Shown in pieces: positions 22,554 through 25,260 of a stretch of 64,000 nt of DNA. The notes beneath the pieces are model-generated. The model worked only from the letters and a program-made list of their open reading frames with translations, was not told the DNA's origin and did no database searches. The stretch is from the IMG/VR virus record IMGVR_UViG_3300021962_008382, positions 62,001 to 126,000 of that record; one strand, given 5' to 3'. Position 1 is the first letter of the stretch. Each line of letters opens with the position of its first letter. The translations under genes were made by a program, and so were the position numbers. The stretch comes from a virus.

Positions 22554-23903
22554 TCAATACTTTTGAATACCAAGTGAGTGTAATCTTCCAGCACTTACTT
22601 CGTACCAGCCAACAGAACCCCCTACGACAGAAACGGGCGATGATCTTGATGATGACTGGTTTTCCCCTAACATACCGTCGGCGTTATTACCCCAAGCCCA
22701 AGCTGTTCCATTTCGTCTTACTGCTAACGAATGACCGTATTTACCTGCGCTTATTTGACACCAGTCAGTAAATCCTCCTACCACGGAAACCGGTGATGTT
22801 CTATCAGTAGCACTATTATCCCCTAACTGACCATTGGCATTACGACCCCAGGCCAGTAGGCTACTATTACCTACAATACCTAGCGAATGACAATACCCAG
22901 CACTTACTTGACTCCAATTACTAAAGCCTCCTATGATAGATACAGGTGATGAGCGGCTAGTAGTTGTATTATCGCCTATCTGTCCGCAGTTATTCCTTCC
23001 CCACCCCCATGCTGTACCGTTCTGTCTTACGGCTAATGAATGACCACCGCCAGCACTTATTTGACACCAGTCGGTGAAGCCACCCACAACTGATACAGGC
23101 GAGGATTTGCTAACAGTAGTATTATCACCTAGTTGACCGTCAGTAGCACAACCCCAACTCCACACCGTACCATTAGTTCTTAGTGCAAGGGAAAACTTAA
23201 ATCCGGCACTTACTTGACACCAGTCAGTAAACCCTCCTACCACAGAAACCGGGGATGATCGTGGTATATTAGTACTGTTATTACCTAACACACCATAATT
23301 ACCAAACCCCCATGCCCAAAGAGTACCATTCTCTCTTAAACCTAAGGAATGACAGAATGCAGATACCTGACACCAATCGGTAAAACCTCCTACTACGGAG
23401 ACTGGGGAGGATCTATGTAAATTACAATTATCACCTAAATTTCCGCTACCATACTGCCCCCAACTCCATGCGGTGCCGTTATTTCTAACTGCCAATGAAT
23501 GATTAACACCGGCGCTTATATCATACCAGTCAGTAAAACCACCTGCAACCGAAACGGGGGAGGATCTATCATTAACATCGCCCAACCCGAGTTTGCCTCG
23601 ATAATTGTCACCCCACCCCCACGCTTGACCTGACGTACAGTCCTGTCGTAAAATACGGTTGTCTAGAGACATCCAACAACCAGCACCGGCTACTACCGGT
23701 ATACAGAGAGATTGTACAAATATTACTGTACCTACTGAAATACTATTAGTAGCTTGATCAGGTAAATCACCCGTATCAGACACTACTATTGAACGATTAG
23801 TAGTAGCATTGCTAGTTTCAGCAGCGAGTACAACCATCTCGGTTACTTCAGAGTTGGCTGTTAAATTTGTTATACAAGTTTGAATTTCACTGAGTGTTGG
23901 CAT
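22554..23903 (-). CDS. RCC1-repeat beta-propeller fibre protein F
   Basis: A 449-residue protein with a head of about 90 residues and then seven RCC1-type repeats of about 50 residues to the C-terminus. Each repeat follows the pattern WxWGxNxxGxLGDN, SSPVSVVGGFTDW, CQVSAGxxHSLAVRxNGT. The seven core turns read WGDN, WGQY, WGFG, WGCA, WGRN, WGRN, WGNN. Seven repeats are what closes the RCC1 propeller. The head lacks the YYY/W motif of most paralogues and ends WMSLDNRILRQD, like protein D (25263-26666). It is the last gene of the array. It shares an 84-base identical stretch with the neighbouring gene E. Function inferred: virion adhesin. Confidence 0.85.
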   Translation of the reverse strand: MPTLSEIQTCITNLTANSEVTEMVVLAAETSNATTNRSIVVSDTGDLPDQATNSISVGTVIFVQSLCIPVVAGAGCWMSLDNRILRQDCTSGQAWGWGDNYRGKLGLGDVNDRSSPVSVAGGFTDWYDISAGVNHSLAVRNNGTAWSWGQYGSGNLGDNCNLHRSSPVSVVGGFTDWCQVSAFCHSLGLRENGTLWAWGFGNYGVLGNNSTNIPRSSPVSVVGGFTDWCQVSAGFKFSLALRTNGTVWSWGCATDGQLGDNTTVSKSSPVSVVGGFTDWCQISAGGGHSLAVRQNGTAWGWGRNNCGQIGDNTTTSRSSPVSIIGGFSNWSQVSAGYCHSLGIVGNSSLLAWGRNANGQLGDNSATDRTSPVSVVGGFTDWCQISAGKYGHSLAVRRNGTAWAWGNNADGMLGENQSSSRSSPVSVVGGSVGWYEVSAGRLHSLGIQKY

Positions 23904-23904
23904 T

Positions 23905-25260
23905 TTATATACTCTGCAGTGGGACTGTTGCTATTGTTCTGCCTAGTGAGAATCTTCGACCCGCACTAACTTGGGCCCAGTTAGTAAAACCACCTACAAC
24001 AGAAACAGGAGATGATAAATCTCCTGTAGCATTATTCCCCAACTGACCGTAATTATTATCCCCCCAAGCCCAAGCTGTACCATTGGTTCGAACCCCCAGG
24101 GAATGCCGAAAGCCTGCTGAAGCCCGACACCAATCGGTGAAACCACCTACTATTGAAGCAGGGGTAATACAACAATAATTACCCCCTTTATTAACACCTA
24201 TCTGACCGTAACGCGTGGATCCCCATCCCCAGGCAGTCCCGTTTGATCTTACCCCTAACGTAAAATTATTACCCGCGCTAACCTGAATCCAATCAGTATA
24301 TGTTGACACCTGGGTAGGAGATGAGGCACTAGTGTTACCCCCGTTACCTATCTGCCAGTAATTATTACGCCCCCAGGCAAAGGCAGTCCCATTTGTTCTT
24401 ACTGCTGCTGAATGCGTATGGCCAGCGCTAATATTACACCAGTCAGTAAATCCTCCTACCACAGAAACCGGTGATGATCTATTAGTAGCACTATTATCAC
24501 CTAATCGACCCGAACCGTTATACCCCCAAGCCCAGAGGGTCCCGCCTGATCTTAATGCTAAAGAATACTTGTAACCAGAACTTATTTGACACCAGTCGGT
24601 GAAGCCACCCACAACTGATACAGGCGAGGATTTGCTAACAGTAGTATTATCACCTAGTTGACCACTTTCGTTACTACCCCAAGCCCAAGCCGAACCATTA
24701 GTTCTTACTGCTAAAGTAGAATTTCTCCCGGCGGCCGCTTGACACCAGTCAGTAAATCCTACAACAGAAACCGGTGATGATCTGTTAGTAGTACAATTAT
24801 CACCTAATCGCCCCTGGCCATTGCATCCCCAAGCATACAACACACCATTAGTTCTTAACCCTAAAGAGTGTTGATAACCGGCTGACACCTGACGCCAATC
24901 GGTAAAGCCTCCTAATACGGAAATTGGCGAAGATTTATTTACAGTAGTATTATCTCCTAACACACCATTATAGTTACGTCCCCATACATATGCCTGACAG
25001 CTTACCGCATGCGAAAAGGTTGAAAAATCGCTGTTCCACGCCCCTTGAACAGCGTAGTAATATTTGTTTTCATCATCCACATATACCATTCTACCATTAT
25101 AAGTAGTAGCGTTAGGTAGATTGGTGCAAGTAGAAACTTTAAAAACTGGCTGGCACAGAATAGTAAGTGCGTTTTCTGCTTGGCAGCACTGCAAAGAGGT
25201 TAAGCCTCCTGCGCATAGCAGGCTGCATATTTTATCTATAAGCGGTTGAGTATTAATCAT
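23905..25260 (-). CDS. RCC1-repeat beta-propeller fibre protein E
   Basis: A 451-residue paralogue with seven repeats (core turns WGRN, WGCN, WGSN, WGYN, WGRN, WGST, WGDN). The head is Cys-rich at the start (ICSLLCAGGLTSLQCCQ) and then has the fibre-type motif NGRMVYVDDENKYYYAVQGAW. Repeat 6 is irregular, with NKGGNYCCITPASIV replacing the usual SSPVSVV. These irregular loops, which would lie on one rim of the propeller, vary most between paralogues. It is separated by one or two bases from the genes on both sides, so it is co-transcribed. It contains exact DNA matches to genes F and B of the array. Confidence 0.86.
   Translation of the reverse strand: MINTQPLIDKICSLLCAGGLTSLQCCQAENALTILCQPVFKVSTCTNLPNATTYNGRMVYVDDENKYYYAVQGAWNSDFSTFSHAVSCQAYVWGRNYNGVLGDNTTVNKSSPISVLGGFTDWRQVSAGYQHSLGLRTNGVLYAWGCNGQGRLGDNCTTNRSSPVSVVGFTDWCQAAAGRNSTLAVRTNGSAWAWGSNESGQLGDNTTVSKSSPVSVVGGFTDWCQISSGYKYSLALRSGGTLWAWGYNGSGRLGDNSATNRSSPVSVVGGFTDWCNISAGHTHSAAVRTNGTAFAWGRNNYWQIGNGGNTSASSPTQVSTYTDWIQVSAGNNFTLGVRSNGTAWGWGSTRYGQIGVNKGGNYCCITPASIVGGFTDWCRASAGFRHSLGVRTNGTAWAWGDNNYGQLGNNATGDLSSPVSVVGGFTNWAQVSAGRRFSLGRTIATVPLQSI

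Follow-up and report, generated by a model that had tools for sequence, protein, structure and literature searches.

By what route did two neighbouring phage genes come to have 84 bases in common without a single difference? The genes lie in the window, by which we mean the whole stretch of 64,000 nucleotides that was analysed (positions 62,001 to 126,000 of IMG/VR record IMGVR_UViG_3300021962_008382). A sequence-only reading of this DNA had noted that positions 23055-23138 and 24580-24663 are identical, with differing bases just outside, and had proposed recent gene conversion or recombination between copies. Our results support this proposal strongly: the identity is very probably the footprint of continuing, short-tract, non-reciprocal ectopic gene conversion among the blades of six propeller genes, which would diversify probable adhesins. 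The evidence lies in a test of codon usage, in the loss of orthology among blades, in donor-matched blocks of strain variation and in a likely transfer from one gene, E, to its neighbour, F.

The propeller array and its surroundings

The source record comprises 158,915 bases, and the presence of T4-like baseplate, sheath and terminase genes indicates a T4-like phage. Its nearest major capsid proteins are those of Pelagibacter and Methylophilales phages (66%), and a search for psbA, a marker of cyanophage hosts, found none. On the minus strand of the window, six tandem genes encode RCC1-type seven-bladed propellers of about 450 amino acids each, namely A (30063-31406; 447 aa), B (28701-30059; 452 aa), C (27328-28704; 458 aa), D (25263-26666; 467 aa), E (23905-25260; 451 aa) and F (22554-23903; 449 aa). 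Open reading frames delimit all six, supplemented by translations and blade anchors for each, by an AlphaFold model (pLDDT 90) for B, and by Pfam matches for E and F (WD40_RLD/RCC1 in the latter). Between C and D, on the same strand, stands a DUF4376 gene of a tail-fibre family (26669-27292; PF14301, 4.9e-10; phrog_10508 tail fibre, 5.1e-15), at whose place the arrays of relatives have a gap of about 660 bp.

Each propeller gene combines an individual N-terminal domain with seven RCC1 blades, seven anchors being found in 6/6 genes, and the half-blade before the first anchor is completed by a C-terminal half-blade, which closes the propeller. RCC1 repeats exceeded the Pfam cut-off throughout, PF00415 in 6-7 stretches per protein and PF25390 in F, E and B, and the whole virus record holds 40 such repeats. 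The model of gene B aligned with UVR8 at a TM-score of about 0.7 by the query and about 0.85 by the target, and the best PDB matches of the propellers were UVR8 and the RCC1-like domains of HERC. Both the repeats and the seven closed, four-stranded blades were found, and the array propellers belong to the RCC1 family.

The neighbours of the array are fibre-like, with DUF4376, Mtd_N and S74 chaperone domains. Two adjoining fibre-like genes at 31410-33250 have repeats of a common TTANIAESGNLYFTNAR unit, matching exactly over 53 and over 33 bases; the second gene carries the Mtd_N domain, which is named after the target protein of a diversity-generating retroelement (DGR), and no reverse transcriptase was found. 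Downstream of the array, at 17472-22510, the translations suggest glycan-modifying-like genes (sulfotransferase-like, TPR and methyltransferase-like).

The 84-base tract and its companions

The identity between the two copies was confirmed as exact and abruptly ended. Both are on the minus strand, at blade junction F3/F4 in gene F (23055-23138) and at E2/E3 in gene E (24580-24663); the two sites, in two old paralogues, are therefore off-register. In the 20 bases upstream of the pair on the plus strand, 10/20 positions match, and the next-best match to the tract across the six propeller genes reaches 65/84. No other exact match among the propeller genes is as long, and in the whole window only one exceeds it, an 85-base match at 39.8 kb; this is internal to a gene (39469-40545) composed for the most part of 39-bp tandem repeats (PNPGNFTPGGTNP and its variants).

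Two companion pairs were detected, also on the minus strand. A 58-base tract in blade E3, including a variable loop (24499-24556), matches blade B5 (28977-29034) exactly, and a 40-base tract in blade F4 (22999-23038), 16 bases from the 84-base tract, matches blade D3 (25864-25903). Blade F4 is thus a mosaic of the E-like 84 bases, 16 bases of its own and the D-like 40 bases, and in blade E3 the 84-base tract is joined to the B-like 58 bases.

The 84 bases encode GQLGDNTTVSKS followed by SPVSVVGGFTDWCQIS, and both ends adjoin the blade positions that vary most (entropy about 2.8-3.5 bits). The tract holds the conserved core plus the outer portion of a single loop and breaks off at the two loops of highest variability, so the hypervariable residues were not moved by this tract itself. 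In the model of gene B, two strands lie between the two variable loops; given the antiparallel topology of a blade, both loops would share one face of the propeller, and the conserved turns (GGFTDW, RTNGT) would be on the opposite one.

To evaluate the silent sites, codon identity was determined in 233 stretches of at least 12 identical amino acids. Identity inside the 84-base tract was 28/28 codons, compared with a mean of 47%; other amino-acid-identical stretches of 19-21 residues have 32-57% of codons in common. Codons were also permuted within alignment column and residue, leaving the protein sequences unchanged. In 3000 runs chance matches reached at most 48 bases, a length that the 84- and 58-base tracts exceed, and a run of 40 bases was reached in 0.6% of the shuffles (p = 0.006 for the F4/D3 pair). 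Along the diagonal of the 84-base tract, codon identity in the two flanks was 15/40 and 10/40. Taken together, the codon identity, the shuffle maximum and the drop at the flanks place the silent-site identity of the tract far above that of other blades, where an identity no higher than theirs would have spoken against conversion. An abruptly ended tract above chance at silent sites is a feature of ectopic gene conversion.

As to the direction of transfer, the orthologous junction in gene E of relative L011 encodes the same 28 residues and agrees in 74/84 bases, compared with 65/84 for the gene F junction of L011. Among the E and F junctions of L011, L012 and L017, only that of L011 gene E carries these residues. 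This comparison, which involves a single relative, suggests that the patch is at home in E and that gene E probably donated it to gene F.

Relatives and near-clonal strains

Arrays of six genes, likewise with this gap between the third and the fourth, were found in L011, in L012 and in a near-clonal group among L013-L020, in which some contigs contain four of the six propeller genes only. The arrays of the relatives also hold long exact tracts, at other places, and the longest tract exceeded the shuffle maximum in 4/4 genomes tested. A further relative, L021, has nine RCC1 genes in the stretch that was fetched, with exact internal matches of up to 123 bases.

Comparing the window with L011, L012 and L017, we found that the N-terminal domains had their ortholog as best match in 18/18 comparisons and that the propeller parts showed no preference for orthologs. 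The best match of a blade lay at the orthologous place in 1/36, 0/36 and 2/36 cases, with about 1 expected by chance, and blade identities were nearly equal between orthologs and non-orthologs. Blades were more alike within than between genomes in L011, L012 and L017, though not in the window genome. Paralogues that evolve in concert and lose their orthology are a second feature of ectopic gene conversion, found here with the exception that the window genome does not show the within-genome likeness.

The near-clonal strains, for which all evidence comes from metagenome assemblies, show where such genomes change. Between G004 (L017) and G006 (L020), 57 substitutions fell within 8,672 aligned sites of the array and 0 within 38,770 others, a count that leaves out, by a post hoc exclusion, 15 substitutions in the fibre gene directly upstream of the array. 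G005 (L019) had 25 in 8,790 array sites and 0 in 11,639 others; G003 (L014) had 4 in 8,790 and 0 in 29,333 once a collagen-like repeat gene (60.6-62.8 kb) was left out; and G007 (L016) had 0 differences in the array and 1 outside it. The excluded places are of interest in their own right. The end of the upstream fibre gene (L053; G004 35574-35838) had 15 substitutions in two strains, against none in a long adjoining stretch. The collagen-like repeat gene (L054/L055; G004 60.6-62.8 kb), whose units read QGTQG/QGLQGEQG, is another hypervariable place at which otherwise near-identical strains differ. In the assembled genomes, the near-clonal strains were thus shown to differ almost solely in the array and two other fibre-like genes; judged from these contigs, the array part of the genome is changing and most of the remainder hardly at all. 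A second strain set (L031/L033/L034/L039 and L030/L032) was identical throughout and yielded no events.

The differences between strains cluster in blocks, of which several could be matched to a donor (coordinates of L017; null model with codons drawn independently from the family's own columns). The block at 9979-10032 in gene C is an exact copy of 80 bp from gene F (null 3/19988), and that at 10357-10366 in the same gene is a copy of 43 bp from gene A (162/19055). In gene E, the block at 13144-13146 is a 40 bp copy from within E (380/19417), and the block at 13921-13933 is a 26 bp copy from gene A (3/20000). In 3/7 strain blocks the new allele had no full donor; at 8618-8637 in gene B it is the reference allele, not the new one, that matches gene E, over 41 bp. 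A complex block in gene E of L020 (13451-13568) holds a 61-base match to gene F. Compared with L017, gene E of L020 also shows two gaps, of 60 and 71 bases (13144-13203 and 13889-13959); the second breaks the frame, and both may be either real or assembly faults.

In L020, the F segment and its 80 bp copy in gene C coexist in the same genome, as is characteristic of non-reciprocal transfer, here in single, assembly-based events. In the contigs and the window, patches of about 26-84 bases are thus shown to be common to paralogous blades by transfer with the donor copy kept. The earlier suggestion that exchange shuffles loops holds for the 58-base tract and for the strain events in L020 and L019, which move variable loops; the 84-base tract itself did not.

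Explanations and comparison with known systems

First, we considered that the assembler might have joined reads of different blades, for which speak the repetitive blades, the purely metagenomic strain data and the frame-breaking gap in gene E of L020. Against this, the window and assemblies L009 and L010 agree on the 84-base tract; over 11 and 17 kb, 26516 and 26518 are the sole positions at which these two assemblies depart from the window. (These positions, two bases apart, are in the N-terminal part of gene D.) In addition, the flanking bases that the F patch of 80 bases in gene C has in common with its recipient number only 8 and 18, which is shorter than the usual assembly words, so the joints should occur in reads. 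Several variants recur in contigs of different metagenome ids, and the loss of orthology is independent of single joints. We therefore regard an artefact as quite unlikely. Isolate genomes offered no further check, as the regions of S-SRM01 and BUCT-ZZ01 are without the six-gene array.

Second, a blade or a whole gene might have been duplicated recently, followed by fast change in the loops without any conversion. The tract does end at the most variable loops, and fast-changing loops would give the same picture; however, every array compared holds distinct orthologs of E and of F, the conserved flanking codons agree no better than elsewhere, and each gene keeps seven blades. We give this explanation slightly less weight than an artefact. 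Third, a DGR or another directed mutator might alter the loops, as the strong focus of the variation, the adjoining gene with Mtd_N and the blocks that lack a donor in the array might suggest. The blocks, however, contain silent changes, and several copy other blades. No reverse transcriptase (RVT_1) was found in the record of the window or in those of six relatives, some of which are incomplete; a DGR was rejected on this ground and appears more improbable still. Finally, the identity might have been kept with no transfer of DNA, by selection for protein or codon sequence (constraint or convergence), as the strong protein-level conservation of the core might suggest. This can be dismissed almost entirely, since the codon test contradicts it: shuffles that preserve the protein and the codons of each column never reach 58 or 84 bases, and equally conserved stretches of 19-21 residues vary in their codons.

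Continuing ectopic gene conversion in the array is accordingly well supported as a process, and the adhesin function is what we infer from the surroundings of the genes. The phage encodes a UvsX-like recombinase (phrog_97, E=1.5e-90), and such a recombinase, or template switching in recombination-dependent replication, might make the exchanges. The N-terminal domains would anchor each protein in the particle, the face with the variable loops may bind host surfaces, and selection would retain variants with altered binding. The loops had been called receptor-binding; the fibre-like neighbours (DUF4376, Mtd_N and S74 chaperone domains) and the variable face are consistent with this role, and the propellers are best described as putative adhesins. 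It is doubtful, in our estimation, that the array is a dedicated, reverse transcriptase-free diversification device, in which conserved, intact propeller genes would be mutual donors and exchange would be focused above the normal recombination of the phage. Natural near-clonal strains that lack substitutions outside a few adhesin-like genes record single conversion events with unusual clarity, so that tract length, donor choice and homology needs can be measured, and ordinary ortholog-based trees are unfit for reading such loci.

In sequence and fold, all above Pfam cut-offs, the propellers resemble RCC1, UVR8 and HERC (PF00415, PF25390); here, they are encoded by a phage, in an array of six genes, and carry an N-terminal domain of phage type, whereas the known solved structures are mostly eukaryotic. 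Homologous propellers with 40-42% identity and similar predicted folds occur near fibre-like genes in Synechococcus phages S-SRM01 and BUCT-ZZ01 and in uncultured Caudovirales, but no six-gene array is annotated around the matches of the isolates and no conversion has been reported. Close to the RCC1 gene of S-SRM01, the annotation includes TPR, sulfotransferase and glycosyltransferase genes. A prasinovirus paper followed as an RCC1 lead was set aside, because in the passages concerned 'RCC1' belongs to culture-collection strain numbers (PMC12906663). In work on blade amplification, new propellers arise from single blades, RCC1/BLIP-II is among the groups, and the term gene conversion is not used (PMC9218822). 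There too blades are made alike by DNA-level events, but in the array the number of blades is constant and most patches fall short of a whole blade.

Adhesin variation by recombination is already known; the form found here, a phage propeller array with intact genes as mutual donors, appears to be undescribed, as we found no account of such RCC1 arrays in the open-access literature searched. The recombination of T-even tail-fibre adhesins takes place by exchange between different phages. It likewise remodels a fibre-type locus of T4-like phages by homologous recombination, whereas the donors in our case were found inside the same array. Antigens and adhesins also vary by gene conversion, for example in Neisseria pilE/pilS and Borrelia vlsE. 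The array works alike, short patches from paralogues making mosaic surface-type proteins; we do not claim membership in these systems, which have a single expression site and silent cassettes, in contrast to the six intact genes that are both donors and recipients here. If the propellers bind hosts, the array would be a phage counterpart of bacterial antigen variation, with intact adhesin genes as its own library of parts.
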